A stretch of DNA of 64,000 bases from Frigoribacterium sp. JB110 (GTDB lineage: Bacteria > Actinomycetota > Actinomycetes > Actinomycetales > Microbacteriaceae), in NCBI RefSeq assembly GCF_900163665.1, contig NZ_FUIA01000020.1, forward strand, positions 62,001 through 126,000. The letters are read 5' to 3'. Made by a program: the position numbers and the translations under genes. Every line of letters starts with the position of its first letter. The stretch's first letter is position 1. Positions 14,860 through 27,138 of this stretch are shown here, piece by piece. Below the pieces are notes generated by a model. The model ran no database searches. It was not told the DNA's origin and was given only the letters and a program-made list of their open reading frames with translations.

Positions 14860-14879
14860 AATGTACCTCCTGGTACATT
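14860..14879 (+). promoter_or_regulatory. TetR-type operator before the 3-dehydroshikimate dehydratase gene
   Basis: AATGTACC-TCCT-GGTACATT is a perfect 8-bp-arm palindrome ending seven bases before the start codon. An imperfect copy sits before the facing TRAP operon (22198-22217). The TetR gene between them is the obvious candidate ligand-responsive repressor. Confidence 0.75.
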
Positions 14880-14885
14880 CGGGTC

Positions 14886-16673
14886 ATGAGCACTTCAGTG
14901 GCGACAGTGTGTCTTTCGGGCGGGCTCGTGGAGAAGCTGCACGCCTGCGCTGCGGCCGGGTTCGACGGAGTCGAGATCATGGACACCGACCTGGTGGTGG
15001 CGCCGGAGTCGCCGGAGGAGATCCGCGCGCTGTGCGACAGGCTCGGGCTGCGCATCGACATGTTCCAGCCGTTCCGCGACCTCGAAGGCGTCGGCGACGA
15101 GGCCTTCGCCGACAATCTCAGGCGCGCGAGCGCGAAATTCGACGTGATGGATCGGCTCGGCACCGACCTGATGCTGCTGTGCAGCAACGCCGGCACGGCG
15201 ACAACGGGCGACGAGGCCACGACCGTTGACCAGCTGAGGGCGATCGCCGATCTGGCGGCCGATCGCGGCATCCGGATCGCCTACGAGGCTCTGGCGTGGG
15301 GCCGATACATCGACGACTACCGCGAAGCGTGGCGCCTGGTACGGCTCGCCGACCGCGACAACCTCGGCGTCTGCCTCGACAGCTTCCATATCCTCAGCCG
15401 CGGCCACGATCCCGCAGCGATCGAGGAGATCCCTGGTGAGAAGATCTTCTTCCTGCAGCTCGCCGACGCGCCTGCTCTCGATATGGATGTGCTGCAGTGG
15501 AGCCGCCACCACCGGCTCTTCCCCGGTGAGGGCGACTTCGATCTCACCGGATTCCTCGGTCACGTGCTTCGCGCCGGATACGCGGGGCCGATGTCGCTCG
15601 AGGTCTTCAACGACACCTTCCGGCAGACCGACGTGGTGCGCACCGCTGCGCACGCGCGCCGTTCGCTGATGTGGCTGGCCGACCTGACGTCCGCCGAGAA
15701 CGGCTGGCAGCGCGACAGGATCACGGCGCCGCAGGTCGCGCGAGGTGTCGACTTCGTCGAGGTCGCAGGCAGTGACCTGCACGCGCTCGACCAGATGCTC
15801 GGCCAGCTCGGCTTCGCGTTCCGCGGGCGCCACCGCTCCAAGCCCGTGCGGCTGTGGACAGCGGGTCGCGCGCGCATCGTGCTCAACGAGCAGGTCACCA
15901 GCGACCGGCCCCGCCTCTCCGGTATCGGCATCACGGTCGACGATGCCGCGCTCGCGTCGCGACGAGCCACCGCTCTCGGCGCCGCCCCCGTGTATCGGCG
16001 CACATACCAGGGCGAGGTCGAGCTGCGCGCCGTGGCCTCGCCCGACGGCACCGAGGTCTACTGGAACGACCGCGATCCCGAGGAGTCGTGGATCGGGGAG
16101 TTCGACGGCGGTCCGGCCGTCCGGGGATTCGCCGGCGACATCGACCACATCAACGTGGCGTACCCGTGGCAGGAGTTCGACGAGGCCGTGCTGTTCATGT
16201 CGAGCGTCGTCGGCCTGGTGGCGGAGTCGGCCTCCGACGTGCCAGGGCCGCGAGGTCTCGTGCGCAGCCAGGTGATGACGAGCCCGGACGGCGTGATCCG
16301 GCTGCCGATGAACCTCGCCCCGCCGACCGCGCCCGTTCCGGATCGGCATGCAGCCATCCGGGTGGATGACGCTGTGGCCGTCGCCCGGGCGGCCCACGAG
16401 CGGGGCCTGCAGTTCCTTCCCGTTCCCGCGAACTACTACGACGACCTCGCCGCGCGCTTCGCCCTCGACGACGAGCTTCTCAGCACCCTGCGGGAACTCG
16501 ATCTGCTCTACGACCACGACGCGGACGGCGCGTTCGTGCACTTCTACACCCCGACGATCGGCGGCGTCTTCCTCGAGATCGTCGAACGCCGCGGCGACTA
16601 CGACGGCTACGGCGCCCCGAACGCCCCCGTACGCCTCAGCGCCCAGCGCCAGGTCGCAGCGCCCCGCCCGTAG
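14886..16673 (+). CDS. qsuB: 3-dehydroshikimate dehydratase, QsuB-like isomerase/HPPD fusion
   Basis: This 595-residue protein joins an N-terminal sugar-phosphate isomerase/epimerase TIM barrel (about residues 1-265, with AYEALAWGRYI, VCLDSFHI and SLEVFND metal-site stretches) to a C-terminal 4-hydroxyphenylpyruvate-dioxygenase-like half (about 285-590, with DHINVAYPWQEFDEAVLFM and the terminal IGGVFLEIVERRG). This architecture is that of QsuB, which converts 3-dehydroshikimate to protocatechuate in quinate/shikimate catabolism. ATG 14886 sits seven bases after a palindromic operator, so repressor binding would block it. Context with a TRAP transporter and shikimate dehydrogenase supports the role. 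The final product step is inferred. Confidence 0.85.
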   Translation: MSTSVATVCLSGGLVEKLHACAAAGFDGVEIMDTDLVVAPESPEEIRALCDRLGLRIDMFQPFRDLEGVGDEAFADNLRRASAKFDVMDRLGTDLMLLCSNAGTATTGDEATTVDQLRAIADLAADRGIRIAYEALAWGRYIDDYREAWRLVRLADRDNLGVCLDSFHILSRGHDPAAIEEIPGEKIFFLQLADAPALDMDVLQWSRHHRLFPGEGDFDLTGFLGHVLRAGYAGPMSLEVFNDTFRQTDVVRTAAHARRSLMWLADLTSAENGWQRDRITAPQVARGVDFVEVAGSDLHALDQMLGQLGFAFRGRHRSKPVRLWTAGRARIVLNEQVTSDRPRLSGIGITVDDAALASRRATALGAAPVYRRTYQGEVELRAVASPDGTEVYWNDRDPEESWIGEFDGGPAVRGFAGDIDHINVAYPWQEFDEAVLFMSSVVGLVAESASDVPGPRGLVRSQVMTSPDGVIRLPMNLAPPTAPVPDRHAAIRVDDAVAVARAAHERGLQFLPVPANYYDDLAARFALDDELLSTLRELDLLYDHDADGAFVHFYTPTIGGVFLEIVERRGDYDGYGAPNAPVRLSAQRQVAAPRP

Positions 16674-16675
16674 TT

Positions 16676-16733
16676 CTTCATTTCTGGCACATCTCCGGGT
16701 GGGCACACCACCGGAGATGTGCCAGAAATGAAG
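16676..16733. repeat. 58-bp palindromic intergenic repeat, copy 1
   Basis: Two 23-bp arms (16676-16698 and 16711-16733) are perfectly complementary around a 12-base loop. The copy lies three bases after the qsuB stop and 15 before the convergent tetR stop. Two more near-identical copies occur at 24096 and 27081. Confidence 0.9.
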
Positions 16734-16748
16734 AGTTGGGCCGCGCTC

Positions 16749-17390
16749 TCAGCGGATGGCGACCCAGTTCTCCACGATGTCGGGAAGCATCGCGCGGGAG
16801 TGGGTGAGCGCGTCGGGGGAGAGCAGGTCGCGGTGGAACAGGTGGCCGAACGTGTGCTGATTCGCGACTTGGAATACGCAGTATGCGCTGATCAGCATAT
16901 GCACGTCGACGGCGTCGAAGCCGTCCCGGATCTCGCCCATCTCGCGGCCGCGGGTGAGGATCACGTCGAGCGCATCGACGGCGGGCTGGCCGAGCTCCCG
17001 CAGCGACTCGATCTGCTTGAGGAACTGCGCCCCGTGGATGTTCTCGATCATCACCAGCCGAATGAACTCCGCGTGCTCGACGTGGTGGTCGAAGGTTGCG
17101 ACCGCGATTTCGCGCAGCGCGGCCAGCGGGTCGAGACCCGCCACGTCGATGCGCGCCTCCTCCTGCCGGATGCCGCGGTACGCCCGCTCGAGAACCGCGC
17201 TGTAGAGCTGGTCCTTGCCCCCGAAGTAGTAGTAGATCATCCGCTTCGTGGTGCGGGTGCGCGCCGCGATCTCATCGACGCGCGCACCGGAGTAGCCGTG
17301 CTCGGCGAACACCTCTCCCGCAACGTTGAGAAGCTCCCGACGCGTACGCTCCGCGTCGCGCAATCGAGCCTTGGGGGCACTGCTGCTCAT
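16749..17390 (-). CDS. TetR-family transcriptional regulator
   Basis: This 213-residue repressor has an N-terminal HTH (ERTRRELLNVAGEVFAEHGYSGARVDEIAARTRTTKRMIYYYF) and a C-terminal ligand domain of about 150 residues beginning KDQLYSAVLERAYRGIR. It is the last gene of the dctQ-dctM-aroE-dctP-hydrolase-tetR transcript, 13 bases after the hydrolase, with AGGGAG before the ATG. The two AATGTACC-type palindromes flanking the whole locus are its likely operators, which would give autoregulation and coordinated induction of both arms. The ligand is probably a pathway intermediate. Confidence 0.88.
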   Translation of the reverse strand: MSSSAPKARLRDAERTRRELLNVAGEVFAEHGYSGARVDEIAARTRTTKRMIYYYFGGKDQLYSAVLERAYRGIRQEEARIDVAGLDPLAALREIAVATFDHHVEHAEFIRLVMIENIHGAQFLKQIESLRELGQPAVDALDVILTRGREMGEIRDGFDAVDVHMLISAYCVFQVANQHTFGHLFHRDLLSPDALTHSRAMLPDIVENWVAIR

Positions 17391-17403
17391 CTGTCTCCCT
17401 CGC

Positions 17404-18387
17404 TCAGGCGCCTGCGAGTACGCGCCGCGGCGTCTCCACCATCATGGTACGGATGGTCTCCTCGTCGACGCCCTCGCGTCGCAGACGGGGCAGCACGTCG
17501 TCGTGAATGTGATGCATATGCCACGACGGCGTGTGCCTGCGCCGCCACGACGGCGGAGTGACCCTGCTGAACGCCGCGGCGTCGTGCGACAGCACGATCT
17601 GTGATGCGAGCCCCCGCTCCAGAAGCGTCAGCAGAGTCCGGATGCGCTGCTCATCCGGCGCCGTATGCTCCATTCCGAATCGGTCGAAGCCGAGCCACGA
17701 GCCCTCGGACGCGAGCTCGGTCAAGTACGCGATGTCGTCTGAGTCTCCGGCATGGCCGATGACCACGCGCTCGAGCGGGACACCGAGTGCACGCAGCACC
17801 TTCTGCTGCTCCAGCCCGCCCCGGCTCGGTGCGTGCGAATGGGTGAACACCGGTGCCGAGGTCTCCGCCTGAGCCACAGCCGCCGCCTCGAACACGCGCC
17901 TGACATCCGGGGTGAGGCCCTCGACATCCGAGACCACCTTGATCGCCCCGGCGCGCACCTTCGTTCCCCGAATGCCGACGGTCAGGTCGTCGACGAGCAT
18001 CCGGATGAGCGGATCGGGCCCGTCGATGAGGCGCCCCGGTCCGTTGAGCCGGAAGTAGGCCGGCAGCGCGTTATGCGTGTACCACCCTGTGGCCGCCACG
18101 ATCCGCACCGGCGAGGCCTCGGCAACGCGCCGCACCAGAGCGACATCGCGACCGAGGCCAGGCACAGTGAGGTCGACGACCGTGCGCACCCCGCGCCGGA
18201 ACAGCCCGTCCAGCAGCGCGACGGCGTCGGCCACCGCGCGCTGCTCGTCCCATTCCGGGCTGGGCAGCGCGGCATCGACCTCTGGCTGCTGCACGAAGAT
18301 GTGCTCGTGCAGCAGCGTCTCACCGAGGTCGGCGCCGGCGACGTCGCCCGTGCAGGTCGGTGCCGAACCGGGTGCGCCGACGGTCAT
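17404..18387 (-). CDS. Phosphotriesterase-family hydrolase (amidohydrolase superfamily)
   Basis: This 327-residue TIM-barrel hydrolase shows the binuclear-metal ligands of the phosphotriesterase family: HEH in LLHEHIFVQQ, a candidate carbamylated Lys in AGAIKVVSDVEG, THSHAPSRGG, VIGHAGDSDDIAYL and LSHDAAAF. Members include lactonases and esterases besides true phosphotriesterases. It lies four bases after dctP and 13 before tetR. In this catabolic operon it may hydrolyse an ester or lactone of the imported compound, for example a quinate ester or quinide. That substrate is inference. GGAG precedes the ATG. Confidence 0.85.
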   Translation of the reverse strand: MTVGAPGSAPTCTGDVAGADLGETLLHEHIFVQQPEVDAALPSPEWDEQRAVADAVALLDGLFRRGVRTVVDLTVPGLGRDVALVRRVAEASPVRIVAATGWYTHNALPAYFRLNGPGRLIDGPDPLIRMLVDDLTVGIRGTKVRAGAIKVVSDVEGLTPDVRRVFEAAAVAQAETSAPVFTHSHAPSRGGLEQQKVLRALGVPLERVVIGHAGDSDDIAYLTELASEGSWLGFDRFGMEHTAPDEQRIRTLLTLLERGLASQIVLSHDAAAFSRVTPPSWRRRHTPSWHMHHIHDDVLPRLRREGVDEETIRTMMVETPRRVLAGA

Positions 18388-18391
18388 CCGG

Positions 18392-19405
18392 TCACTCCGC
18401 CGAGTCGCGAATGGACTCGAAGACGCTCAGCAGGTCGCCGTCGAGCTCGGCCTCGAACCACGCCACGGCCTGCTCCTGGAAGGCCGCGACGTCGACATCC
18501 TCGTTGACCTCCCATTCGCCCGAGTCCTTCCATTCCTCGATCTTCTCCGTCTCGTCGTCGGCGACGCACTGCGTCACCTCGTCGACCGCATTCTCGACGC
18601 CCTCCTGCAGCGCCGCCTGCTGATCCTCGTCCAACTCGTTCCACACGCCGCCGATGATGACGAGATTGGTGTTGAGCTGGTGGCTCGACAGGTTCAGGTA
18701 GTCCTGCACCTCCTGCAGATTGAGCGCGTCGATGTTGGTGATCGGGTTCTCCTGCCCGTCGGCGGTGCCCTGCTGCAGCGCGAGGTACACCTCCTCGTAG
18801 GCGATCTCCGTCGCCTGGGCGCCCAAGGCCTGAGCGTTGAGCAGGAACTGCGGGGAACCGGGGAACCGGATGCGCAGCCCCGCCAGATCGCTCGGCTCGT
18901 TGATCGGCGCGTTCGACGTGAAGTGCCGGGCACCGGCCGACCATGCGCCGAGAGTGTTGATGCCGCTCGCGTCGGCGAAGTCGGAGACGAGCTGCTGGCC
19001 GCCGTCACCCGCCATGAACGCGGCGAGGTGCTCGGGTCCGTCGAACGCGTATGCCGCGTCGAGCACCGAGATCGGCTCGTACACGGCACCGAGCGCAGAT
19101 GCCCCCTGGATGTCCATGTCGATGTCGCCGGATGCCACGGCCGAGATGCGGTCGGCGTCTCCGCCCAGCTGGCTCGACGGGAAGATCTCGATGTTCAGCC
19201 CGACATCGGCCGACTCGACGGTCTCCTTGATCACCTCTGCGCCGCAGGCGTGCTGGGGCTGATCGGTGTTGTAGCTGGTCGCCAGGTCGAGCGTGAGGGC
19301 GCCGTCCTCCGCCTCGCCGCCGCCGTCCGACCCGCAGCCGGCAAGGGCCACGGCGGATGCGCCGACCAGAGCGACCCACGCTGCTCGCTTGGTGCGTACG
19401 TTCAT
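18392..19405 (-). CDS. dctP: TRAP transporter substrate-binding lipoprotein DctP
   Basis: This 337-residue exported protein starts at ATG 19405 (GAGGAAG upstream) with a signal peptide and lipobox ALAGC, so the mature protein is lipid-anchored outside the membrane. The DctP fold is recognisable in SSQLGGDADRISAVASGDIDMDIQG, DLAGLRIRFPGSPQFL and the YLALQQGTADGQENPITNI signature. It delivers substrate to DctQM. The three TRAP genes are interrupted by the dehydrogenase gene, an unusual order that ties uptake to metabolism. The ligand is probably quinate, shikimate or a relative. Confidence 0.9.
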   Translation of the reverse strand: MNVRTKRAAWVALVGASAVALAGCGSDGGGEAEDGALTLDLATSYNTDQPQHACGAEVIKETVESADVGLNIEIFPSSQLGGDADRISAVASGDIDMDIQGASALGAVYEPISVLDAAYAFDGPEHLAAFMAGDGGQQLVSDFADASGINTLGAWSAGARHFTSNAPINEPSDLAGLRIRFPGSPQFLLNAQALGAQATEIAYEEVYLALQQGTADGQENPITNIDALNLQEVQDYLNLSSHQLNTNLVIIGGVWNELDEDQQAALQEGVENAVDEVTQCVADDETEKIEEWKDSGEWEVNEDVDVAAFQEQAVAWFEAELDGDLLSVFESIRDSAE

Positions 19406-19416
19406 TGTTCTTCCTC

Positions 19417-20346
19417 TCATCGGGGGGTTTCCTGCTGTGTGTTCTCCGCCGCCTCAGCGGCGACCAGGTCATGAATGTCCCGGATGATCGCGGCACGATC
19501 AGCCGCAGCACCCGTGAAGATCTCGAAGGAGTCGCCCGCCTGACCCGCCACCATGCCGAGGCCGGACATCGTGCGCAGTCCACGGGCGCGGGCCGTCCTG
19601 AGCAGCGCCGTCTCGGTCGGGCGGTACACGATGTCGCTCACCCATGCATCGCCCGGAAGCAGACCGGGGTCGAAGGCCATGCCCGGATGGGCGGCCATGC
19701 CGAACGGCGTGGCGTTCACGACGCCGACGGCACAGGGCAGCAGTGCGTCTGCGGCGTCGAGGCCGACGCCTCTGGCTTCGCGCCCGCCTGCGCACACGCG
19801 ATCCGCCAGTTCCTGCGCGCGGTCGACGACCGCATCGACGATCACGATCTCCTCGACATCGCGCTCTGCCAGCGCCGTCGCAACGGCGTTGCCCGCACCG
19901 CCGGCGCCGTACACGATGACGAGGCCGTGCCCTGCACCGCCGAACGCGTCGTCGAAGGCGCTGCCGAAGCCGGTGACGTCGGTGTTGTGACCGATCAGTC
20001 CGGATGGAGTGAACTTCACCGTGTTGACGGCACCGACACGTCGCGCGCTCGGCGCCAGATCGTCGAGCAGCGGGATGACCGCCTGTTTCGCGGGATGTGT
20101 GACGTTCAACCCGTCGAACCCCATCGTGCGCGCCGCCCACAGCAGCTGCTCGAGGCGATCCGGCGCCGCGTCATCCGGTGCGATGTCGACCGGGCGGTAC
20201 ACGTAGCTCATGCCGTGTCGTGCGCCCTCGAGCTCGTGCAGCGGCGGCGTCAACGAGGGCCGCACGCCCTGGCCGATCAGCCCGACGAGCACGGATCGCG
20301 GCGCCTGCGGCAGGCGCGGGGCCGTGGAGTGAGGATTCCCGATCAC
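19417..20346 (-). CDS. Shikimate/quinate 5-dehydrogenase family protein
   Basis: This 309-residue NAD(P)-dependent dehydrogenase starts at GTG 20346, overlapping the dctM stop by four bases. Motifs are the substrate-binding RPSLTPPLHE, GLNVTHPAKQAV with the catalytic Lys, AVNTV, NTDVTGF and the nucleotide loop YGAGGAGNAVATAL. AroE oxidises or reduces C3 of shikimate/3-dehydroshikimate. Within a TRAP operon facing a QsuB-like enzyme it more likely works in catabolism (QsuD-like) than in aromatic biosynthesis. Cofactor preference cannot be settled by eye, so no symbol is given. Confidence 0.88.
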   Translation of the reverse strand: MIGNPHSTAPRLPQAPRSVLVGLIGQGVRPSLTPPLHELEGARHGMSYVYRPVDIAPDDAAPDRLEQLLWAARTMGFDGLNVTHPAKQAVIPLLDDLAPSARRVGAVNTVKFTPSGLIGHNTDVTGFGSAFDDAFGGAGHGLVIVYGAGGAGNAVATALAERDVEEIVIVDAVVDRAQELADRVCAGGREARGVGLDAADALLPCAVGVVNATPFGMAAHPGMAFDPGLLPGDAWVSDIVYRPTETALLRTARARGLRTMSGLGMVAGQAGDSFEIFTGAAADRAAIIRDIHDLVAAEAAENTQQETPR

Positions 20347-21617
20347 AGTCCCAGCACCCCCGGCAGCCACATCACAGCATCGGGGAAGAGCACCGCGAGC
20401 AGCACGACCACGATCAGGGGCACCAGGAACGGCACCGTACCGCGGAACACGTCTCCGATGCGCGTCTTCGACACGCTCGATGTGACGAACAGCACGGTGC
20501 CGACGGGCGGAGTGAGCAGGCCGATCATCAGCGCGATGATGGTCACCACGCCCAGCACGATCGGGTCCACGCCATAGGTGTTCGCAATCGGGATCAGGAT
20601 GGGCACGATCAGCACGAGCACCGCTGTCGCATCGATCACGGTGCCGAGGATCAGGCACAGCACGACGACGAGCAGCAGGAAGACCGTGGGGTCGTCGCTC
20701 ACCGAGAGCATCGCGTCGGTCATCAGCTGGGGAAGGCGCTCACGGGCCAGGATGTAACCGAGCAGCGACGCCGTCGCCACGATCAGCATGATGGCGCCGG
20801 TGGTGAGCACCGTCTCCTTCAGCGCGGCGAGCAGGCCGCGCCAGGTCAGCGTGCGCTGCACGATGCCGACGAGCAGGATGTACACGGCCGATACCGCTGC
20901 GGCTTCCGTCGGTGTGAAGAAGCCGCCGAGGATGCCGCCCAGGATGATCACGGGCGTGATCATCGGCAGGATCACGCCCTTGGTCGCGGCGAGCACCTCG
21001 CGCTTGTCGAACTCGCCGCGAGTGATCTTCCTGTTGCGCGCCACGAGGACGGCGACGACCACGACGAGGCCCGCCGCCATCAGCAGCGCCGGGATCACCG
21101 AGGCCGCGAACAGCCCTCCGGTGGACACTGCGGCGAGGCCGGCGTAGATCACAGCGGGGATCGACGGCGGCATCACCGGTGCGATCAGCGCAGACGACGC
21201 CGACACACCGGTCGCGAAGCGGCGACCGTAGCCGGCACGGATCATCTGCGGGATCTGCACCTTTCCGAGGGCTGCGGCATCGGCGACCGCCGATCCGCTC
21301 ATCCAGCTGAATCCGACGCTCGTGCCGATGGCGACATAGCCGAGAGAGCCGCGCACCCTCGCCAGCACCGCCAGGGCGAAGCGGAAGAGGCGGTCGGCGA
21401 TTCCCGCGTGGTTGGCGAGCGCGCCCAGCAGCACGAACAGCGGGACGGCGAGCATCGGGAAGCTGTTGGCCGCGTTGAACACCTCGCGCAGCGCGTTGCC
21501 GACGGACTGGTCGTTCAGCCACATGTACACGATCGACGGGCCGAGGAAGGCGAACGCGACAGGGACGCGGATGATCAGCAGCACCGCGATCGCGATGCCG
21601 AGCAGGGCGACCATCAT
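20343..21617 (-). CDS. dctM: TRAP transporter large permease DctM
   Basis: This 424-residue protein has 11-12 membrane segments and the DctM signatures VPLFVLLGALANHAGIADRLFRFA, GFSWMSGSAVADAAALGKVQIPQM and PIANTYGVDPIVLGVVTIIALMIGLLTPPVGTVLFV. It forms the sodium-driven import channel with DctQ and DctP. The start overlaps the dctQ stop (ATGA) and the stop overlaps the dehydrogenase start, so translation is coupled along the operon. Confidence 0.93.
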   Translation of the reverse strand: MMVALLGIAIAVLLIIRVPVAFAFLGPSIVYMWLNDQSVGNALREVFNAANSFPMLAVPLFVLLGALANHAGIADRLFRFALAVLARVRGSLGYVAIGTSVGFSWMSGSAVADAAALGKVQIPQMIRAGYGRRFATGVSASSALIAPVMPPSIPAVIYAGLAAVSTGGLFAASVIPALLMAAGLVVVVAVLVARNRKITRGEFDKREVLAATKGVILPMITPVIILGGILGGFFTPTEAAAVSAVYILLVGIVQRTLTWRGLLAALKETVLTTGAIMLIVATASLLGYILARERLPQLMTDAMLSVSDDPTVFLLLVVVLCLILGTVIDATAVLVLIVPILIPIANTYGVDPIVLGVVTIIALMIGLLTPPVGTVLFVTSSVSKTRIGDVFRGTVPFLVPLIVVVLLAVLFPDAVMWLPGVLGL

Positions 21618-22159
21618 GCGCCGACCTCCTGCTCGTCTTCGTCGATCTCCGGCAGGATCGGTCCCCGCAGGGCGATGTGCACCGCCTGGATCAGCGAGCG
21701 CACCGCCGTCGAGACCACTCCGACGAGAACGGGAACGTACACCGACGACATCGGCAGGCGCAGCACCGGTGACTTGATGATGCCCTGCGAGTCGATCAGC
21801 CTCAGCGCCTCGATGACCAGCAGGATCGCCACAGCCGCGACGAGCAGCATCGCGAGCGTCTGCACGATGCGCACCAGCGCCTGGCTGCGGAAACCGTCGA
21901 CGATCTCGAGAGCGATGTGCCCTCGCGTCGTCACGAGCACGCCCGCGATCGAGAACGTCAGCCAGACGAGGCAGAACTGCGAGATCTCACCGGTCCACGC
22001 GACCTGATCGATCGGCAGGTACCGCTGCAGCGCCTGGAAGAAGACGAGCACCACGATCGCGACGAGGCAGACGATGGCGACGGTCATCTCCACCGCCGTG
22101 ATGATGCGAACGACGATGCGCCACGCGGGCAGGCGGGCGGGTGCAGCGGGCTCTGACAT
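21614..22159 (-). CDS. dctQ: TRAP transporter small permease DctQ
   Basis: This 181-residue protein has four membrane segments in the DctQ arrangement (AVEMTVAIVCLVAIVVLVFFQALQRY, ISQFCLVWLTFSIAGVLVTTRGHIALEIVDG). ATG 22159 is chosen because AGGACG precedes it; an in-frame codon 36 bases upstream would lie very near the operator. It is the first gene of the six-gene operon, and the palindrome at 22198-22217 lies 38 bases upstream. Confidence 0.88.
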   Translation of the reverse strand: MSEPAAPARLPAWRIVVRIITAVEMTVAIVCLVAIVVLVFFQALQRYLPIDQVAWTGEISQFCLVWLTFSIAGVLVTTRGHIALEIVDGFRSQALVRIVQTLAMLLVAAVAILLVIEALRLIDSQGIIKSPVLRLPMSSVYVPVLVGVVSTAVRSLIQAVHIALRGPILPEIDEDEQEVGA

Positions 22160-22197
22160 GGGACGTCCTTGTCGGTCCAGAGAATCGGGGTGCAATG

Positions 22198-22217
22198 AAT
22201 GTACCGGTTAGTACATA
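22198..22217 (-). promoter_or_regulatory. TetR-type operator before the TRAP operon
   Basis: AATGTACC-GGTT-AGTACATA matches the palindrome at 14860-14879 in its left arm and in seven bases of the right arm (GTACAT plus spacing). It lies upstream of dctQ, the first gene of the operon that includes tetR. Confidence 0.7.
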
Positions 22218-24095: not shown

Positions 24096-24153
24096 CTTCA
24101 TTTCTGGCACATCTCCGGGTGGGCACACCACCGGAGATGTGCCAGAAACGAAG
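24096..24153. repeat. 58-bp palindromic intergenic repeat, copy 2
   Basis: Identical to the copy at 16676 except for one base (C at 24149) that creates a single mismatch in the stem. It lies between two genes of the same orientation, about 120 bases beyond the dehydrogenase stop. Confidence 0.9.
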
Positions 24154-27080: not shown

Positions 27081-27138
27081 CTTCATTTCTGGCACATCTC
27101 CGGGTGGGCACACCACCGGAGATGTGCCAGAAATGAAG
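27081..27138. repeat. 58-bp palindromic intergenic repeat, copy 3
   Basis: Identical in all 58 bases to the copy at 16676. It lies between the GntR gene and the stop of the next glycosyltransferase, 42 bases downstream of that stop. Confidence 0.9.

Follow-up and report, generated by a model that had tools for sequence, protein, structure and literature searches.

We analysed a 64,000-nucleotide (nt) stretch of the Frigoribacterium sp. JB110 genome (contig NZ_FUIA01000020.1, positions 62,001 to 126,000), hereafter called the window, and found a locus in which two copies of a palindrome flank genes for a QsuB-like dehydratase, a tripartite ATP-independent periplasmic (TRAP) transporter, a shikimate dehydrogenase (SDH) and a TetR-type regulator. 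With a probability that we put at about 0.8, these genes make up a two-operon regulon, under one TetR protein, for the uptake of hydroaromatic acids (shikimate, dehydroshikimate and/or quinate) and their breakdown to protocatechuate. Gene content, sites, co-occurrence and overlap geometry were obtained by computation, and the comparison between genomes makes a strong case for a regulatory link, the locus appearing as the TRAP-bearing variant of a real, conserved TetR regulon.

The locus and its two palindromes

The elements of the locus, in window coordinates, are the following.

14860-14879, no strand: candidate operator 1, a perfect palindrome, AATGTACC-TCCT-GGTACATT, right edge 6 nt 5' of the qsuB ATG (14886)
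22198-22217, no strand: candidate operator 2, 2 mismatches to AATGTACC-N4-GGTACATT, 38 nt 5' of the dctQ ATG
14886-16673, plus strand: qsuB-like gene (P0001), predicted two-domain 3-dehydroshikimate dehydratase, from domain profiles and the alignment with 5hmq
16749-17390, minus strand: tetR (P0002), TetR_N and TetR_C_29 domains, 3'-most gene of the TRAP operon
21614-22159, minus strand: dctQ (P0007), TRAP small permease, PF04290
20343-21617, minus strand: dctM (P0006), TRAP large permease, PF06808
19417-20346, minus strand: shikimate (quinate) dehydrogenase gene, sdh (P0005)
18392-19405, minus strand: dctP (P0004), TRAP solute-binding lipoprotein, PF03480
17404-18387, minus strand: phosphotriesterase (PTE)-family hydrolase gene (P0003), PF02126, possible lactonase or esterase
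14871-14879, plus strand: TGG-TACATT, resembling an extended -10, within the right half-site of operator 1
16675-16734, no strand: 24-bp perfect inverted repeat, lying where the 3' ends of qsuB and tetR face each other

The minus-strand genes run in the order dctQ-dctM-sdh-dctP-pte-tetR from 22159 down to 16749, with junction gaps of -4, -4, 11, 4 and 13 nt, and converge on qsuB, so that both sites lie at the outer edges of the locus. The first-pass annotation of this DNA had put the two palindromes at 14860-14879 and 22198-22217, where we found them, the second 38 bases before dctQ, as measured, and a tetR gene at the end of the dctQ operon, where it indeed lies, 13 nt after pte. The distance of 7 bases that it gave between the first palindrome and the QsuB-like gene had to be corrected to 6 nt. 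It had also spoken of a palindrome that brackets a divergent locus; 'brackets' was right and 'divergent' wrong, because the units are convergent here with the sites at their outer edges. A divergent order does fit relatives such as L038, L061 and L146. The PTE-family gene between dctP and tetR was absent from that annotation.

Taking AATGTACC-N4-GGTACATT as the strict consensus for scoring, operators 1 and 2 were the only matches in the window at up to 3 mismatches, as compared with a mean of 0.03 in shuffled windows. The whole 3.75-Mb genome contained three such sites, the third being a 3-mismatch copy on contig C17 that lies within an open reading frame (ORF); a larger regulon, resting on a third convincing copy, was thereby ruled out. 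A looser motif, AYGTAC-N6-GTACRT, matched exactly at operators 1 and 2 only. Its 1-mismatch matches mean little, since there were 6 of them in the genome for 4 with the reversed control pattern. A chance origin of the palindromes was ruled out by the window shuffles, the genome search and the shuffled-palindrome controls in TetR loci reported below.

P0001 has a TIM-barrel domain (PF01261) fused to a part resembling 4-hydroxyphenylpyruvate dioxygenase (PF14696 plus PF00903), which is the build of QsuB and QuiC, and could be aligned with 5hmq from one end to the other. P0005 is a shikimate dehydrogenase. Among solved structures it came nearest to 2nlo and to 3jyo, which bears the name quinate/shikimate dehydrogenase; both are proteins of C. 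glutamicum. P0005 passes the broader subfamily model NF009201 (316 against a cut-off of 235) and keeps, by alignment, the SLTP/SRTP motif as well as the Asp after the second beta strand that is common to 2nlo and 3jyo, an Asp which we take to denote a preference for NAD. The TRAP set is complete, with DctP, DctQ and DctM domains (PF03480, PF04290, PF06808) all above cut-off, and gene context predicts that it is most likely an importer for shikimate- or quinate-type acids. P0003 scored 266.8 bits for the PTE domain (PF02126), and its best match was the PTE-family protein 4if2 (named phosphotriesterase homology protein), with residues 11-324 aligned. In P0002, PF00440 and PF17938 were above cut-off, and the model and fold search gave a TetR fold and general TetR relatives only; no NCBIfam model reached its cut-off on this protein. 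Its nearest solved relative, by sequence and by fold, was 3npi (DIP1788 of Corynebacterium diphtheriae), which is 32% identical over the fold alignment and whose record names no function.

Co-occurrence of regulator, palindrome and enzymes

The comparison of genomes supports, through co-occurrence and through the retention of the site at promoters, the claim of the first-pass annotation that the importer/dehydrogenase and dehydratase arms share one TetR and one palindrome. We searched 295 genomes of the same GTDB genus (closest named relatives Microbacterium), with cut-offs of ≤2 mismatches for the palindrome, E ≤ 1e-100 for QsuB and E ≤ 1e-60 for TetR. The palindrome was found in 63 genomes, TetR in 59 and QsuB in 71, with all three in 46. 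Palindrome and TetR occurred together in 46 genomes, the palindrome only in 17, TetR only in 13 and neither in 219 (Fisher p ~9e-28, a value that overstates the association because the genomes are related). Within 1 kb 5' of a QsuB match lay 52 of 75 palindromes; for 41 of them the distance to QsuB was 6-8 nt (including the one in G109, listed at 10 nt because the match starts at residue 2), for 6 it was 51-52 nt and for another 5 it was 737-957 nt. The QsuB matches in G222, G146, G077, G098 and G013 had one internal stop codon each, perhaps the gene's own terminal stop. The reversed control pattern also matched many genus genomes, and lone matches at ≤2 mismatches are not rare. A recurrent near-palindrome of the AAAGTACCCSRAGCTACATT type, with no regulon gene nearby, was seen in genus genomes at L020-L022, L030, L032 and L033; it may represent a different conserved feature or a coding context.

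A similar picture was obtained across genera with the loci of TetR relatives (L034-L113), a set that leans to close relatives because it comprises only the best 80 of 491. It includes Microbacterium, Brevibacterium, Aeromicrobium, Nocardioides, Mycolicibacterium, Streptomyces and others. QsuB was matched in 67 of the 80 loci, SDH in 68 and either of them in 74. The site was present at ≤3 mismatches in 58 of 80, as compared with 0.72 on average, and 13 at most, for 300 shuffled half-site palindromes. Thus, the search of related genomes for the palindrome near these genes, which the earlier annotation had proposed, was positive both in the genus and beyond it. Nearly all sites in these loci (72/76) were within 250 bp 5' of a regulon gene used as query and none (0/76) was inside one, and the site stays at promoters whether the genes are arranged convergently, divergently or in the same direction. 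Its variants track lineage, e.g. AATGTACGAACYRGTACGTT in Streptomyces. The recognition helix of TetR (T47-F56) was identical in 81 of 81 aligned sequences, and residues R93, D101, H103, E116, N117, D162, H164 and N177 of the effector domain were invariant in the same alignment.

The TRAP transporter marks a minority form. An orthologue of DctP at ≥63% identity was present in 11 of the 295 genus genomes, the window's own included; 9 of these had a site with ≤2 mismatches at the locus and G222 one with 3 mismatches, and in G040 the contig stops inside dctM, before the expected site. DctM was matched in 10 of the 80 TetR loci, 7 of which also had a PTE match, compared with 0 of the 70 others. Six ORFs in six non-TRAP loci were tested for a transporter: those of L037, L044 and L076 were of the major facilitator superfamily (MFS), to which QsuA of C. 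glutamicum belongs too. The ORFs taken from L050, L071 and L083 had no transporter domain, but they were simple picks and could be incorrect or non-adjacent. The three actinobacterial MFS loci share a related TetR, the site and the enzymes with the window, but have an MFS protein in place of the TRAP system. An ORF first considered as AroQ (L047:6638-7072) was ruled out, being a MarR.

Relatives of P0002 were also found by tblastn in 220 plasmid records, mostly of Sinorhizobium (97) and Rhizobium (70), from which a sample of nine loci (L155-L163) was taken. Among the eight loci searched for TRAP and SDH genes (L155-L160, L162 and L163), both stood beside tetR in L155, L156, L157, L159, L160 and L162; L163 had an MFS gene, SDH, AroQ and QuiC, and L158 none of the TRAP, SDH, MFS, AroQ or QuiC genes. 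The six TRAP-bearing clusters resemble the window in their TetR (44-51% identical), TRAP, shikimate dehydrogenase and palindrome-like site, and differ in that they belong to another phylum and that tetR is usually divergent from the enzyme and TRAP genes. A QuiC-type gene was full in L155, L156 and L162, absent from L159 and L160, and reduced to a 37-residue match in L157. A AATGTACNAACYAGT-type site, with 4-6 mismatches to the strict consensus, lay 99-164 nt before the tetR start in 7 of the 9 loci; L158 had no site and L163 only a weak one. In L160 and in L161, an unannotated locus of S. meliloti 1021, a second position scored equally (6 mismatches), so that the case for the site there rests on its likeness to the other rhizobial sites. 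The rhizobial recognition helix, TSKRMIYYYF, is one change away from that of the window. No PTE match was found in L155-L158, and the L155 cluster holds an SMP-30/gluconolactonase gene, a hint that the pathway may include the opening of a lactone. The earlier suggestion that a TRAP system is an unusual importer for these acids, in a combination perhaps undescribed, therefore stands in its first part (11/295 genomes, 10/80 loci, MFS in three), and the combination is not unique to the window organism, since the rhizobial plasmids carry it as well.

Among the closest described systems are the qsu genes of C. glutamicum (QsuA, QsuB, QsuD, QsuR). They serve the same pathway, with a homologous QsuB-type dehydratase and a quinate/shikimate dehydrogenase relative, but QsuR is described as a LysR-type activator answering chorismate and QsuA as the quinate transporter (PMC11258901), where the window has a TetR encoded in the operon, a TRAP system and a PTE-family gene. 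The biochemistry of QsuB and the quinate genes of Rhodococcus jostii RHA1 are treated in PMC7442255 and PMC10558750, respectively. No TetR or TRAP system for quinate or shikimate was recognised in the open-licence literature, as judged by titles and the starts of abstracts among the matches listed.

Overlap of the proposed operators with predicted promoter elements

For the geometry of the qsuB promoter, we kept the 28 loci whose best site (≤4 mismatches) ended ≤10 nt before the QsuB start, a set that leaves out L001, the window's own copy, and may include near-duplicates. The right half of the site contained TG-N-TA-N3-T in 28 of 28, at a distance from the start codon of 6 nt (7 loci), 7 nt (7 loci) or 8 nt (14 loci). 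Position 12, in the spacer, was T in all 28, which the symmetry of the palindrome does not demand. The qsuB operator is therefore predicted to double as an extended -10 element, with transcription from the ATG or next to it; a leaderless mRNA is predicted because the extended -10 lies 6-8 nt before the ATG. Longer distances from site to QsuB, e.g. 19-34 nt, were frequent in loci of Mycolicibacterium and Aeromicrobium.

On the TRAP arm, the dctQ-proximal half of operator 2 (22198-22203) reads TACATT on the minus strand. The 38 nt that separate site and dctQ in the window were 37-39 nt in L019, L025, L034, L035, L036 and L038, and 47-84 nt in L057, L061, L004 and L005; L046, L047 and L069 had no site at ≤4 mismatches on this arm. 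At the other end of the operon, the inverted repeat that separates qsuB from tetR is dispersed over the genome, which holds 47 arms and 20 complete pairs of it; three copies are in the window (16675-16734, 24099-24150, 27084-27135). The repeat folds at -51.3 kcal/mol (z -10), may be REP-like (repetitive extragenic palindromic) or terminator-like, and may act as a two-way terminator between qsuB and tetR.

Substrate, mechanism and alternatives

Several results weigh against the proposed regulon or its parts. Among genus genomes, 17 with the palindrome had neither TetR nor QsuB, 13 with TetR had no site at ≤2 mismatches, and 10 of the 30 loci L004-L033 had no query-gene match in about 3 kb; 16 of the 74 enzyme-bearing TetR loci had no site at ≤3 mismatches. 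A sigma-70 promoter scan found no promoter. P0001 scored 535.9 bits with the NCBIfam QuiC equivalog, the cut-off of which is 1200, and is for that reason a QuiC relative that the model does not name QuiC; P0005 scored 242.1 bits, under the cut-off of 515, with the NAD+ quinate/shikimate equivalog NF010631. Finally, the window regulon contains no 3-dehydroquinase, and the use of quinate would need one from elsewhere. For this last reason the safer ranking of substrates puts shikimate or dehydroshikimate first and quinate second.

A regulon of the same design that serves mainly quinate, with a 3-dehydroquinase borrowed from another cluster, is nonetheless quite conceivable, though we lean against it. 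The genome has two class II 3-dehydroquinases, both outside the window, and one other AroE-type gene. One of the 3-dehydroquinases belongs to a second TRAP cluster, dctQ-dctM-aroQ-dctP, on contig C28 (L123, G000:C28:354000-367000), near an IclR gene, and could be the source of the enzyme; the DctP of this cluster is 41% identical to that of the window. DctP proteins of the C28 type lie a few kb from QsuB in other genus genomes, e.g. G160 and G261, and in G230 (L143) such a cluster adjoins TetR, SDH and the palindrome. Quinate is also indicated for the close relatives L034, L147 and L148, because aroQ sits there between qsuB and dctQ. Against this, the C28 cluster of the window organism has no matching operator: its best sequence, at the 5' end of the IclR reading frame, has 5 mismatches. 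That operator-like sequence, TATGTACTGTTTGGTACGCA at C28:363685 (L123:9685-9704), has 1 mismatch to the looser motif. The other AroQ, at C23:157593, was considered as the absent pathway enzyme and set aside, as it has no matching site and its neighbours include PcaR-like IclR and MftG-like mycofactocin genes. In that region (L122, G000:C23:150000-166000), the lone 3-dehydroquinase gene adjoins the PcaR-like IclR gene; nearby lie the MftG-like mycofactocin gene and one for a TetR protein whose C-terminal domain is of the MftR type.

The two remaining alternatives concern the palindrome. It might be bound by another regulator, e.g. of the IclR or LysR family, with TetR controlling something else, as IclR-type genes near both 3-dehydroquinase genes of the genome and the control of related genes by other families elsewhere (LysR-type QsuR of Corynebacterium glutamicum, PMC11258901) could suggest. 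We consider this very improbable, given that site and TetR occur together in 46 genus genomes and that the site is found near TetR relatives, with a nearly fixed recognition helix, in many genera and on rhizobial plasmids. It is even harder to credit that the palindrome is mainly a promoter feature, kept for its -10-like hexamer: the 28 selected loci do vary less in the right half than in the left, but the left half is conserved too, the genome has hardly any other such site, and the loci seldom contain shuffled palindromes.

From the TetR regulon that we favour, we infer binding, repression, inducer, transcription starts, PTE role and exact substrate as follows. P0002, made from the last gene of the TRAP operon, would bind both palindromes. 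At qsuB the operator would overlap an extended -10 and the transcript would probably begin at the ATG; at dctQ it would overlap the -10 of a promoter whose short leader bears a ribosome site. Without substrate both operons would be off, including tetR itself (autorepression), and the repressor would be released upon entry of the hydroaromatic acid, or through a product thereof. The TRAP system would bring in the acid, which the dehydrogenase would oxidise to 3-dehydroshikimate (or 3-dehydroquinate). QsuB would convert dehydroshikimate to protocatechuate, whose ring would be opened by a protocatechuate dioxygenase encoded at another place in the genome; contig C14 carries subunit genes for protocatechuate 3,4-dioxygenase. 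The PTE-family enzyme would probably open the acid where it comes as a lactone or an ester.

A bolder proposal, which we find rather unlikely as a whole, is that this unnamed TetR family, with its nearly fixed operator, is a widespread master switch of hydroaromatic catabolism in Actinobacteria and rhizobia. The TRAP form would then govern the uptake of a quinate or shikimate lactone or ester, opened by non-homologous lactonases (PTE or SMP-30), and in Microbacterium the operator would be the extended -10 of a leaderless qsuB promoter, repressor and RNA polymerase competing for the same bases.

If the two-operon regulon is real, it would place a TetR-type switch for the breakdown of hydroaromatic acids next to the LysR-type one already known, and give plant-made acids a TRAP importer. 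Such loci could then be predicted in many genomes from a single operator motif, and the repressor could be used as a biosensor for compounds of the shikimate pathway.

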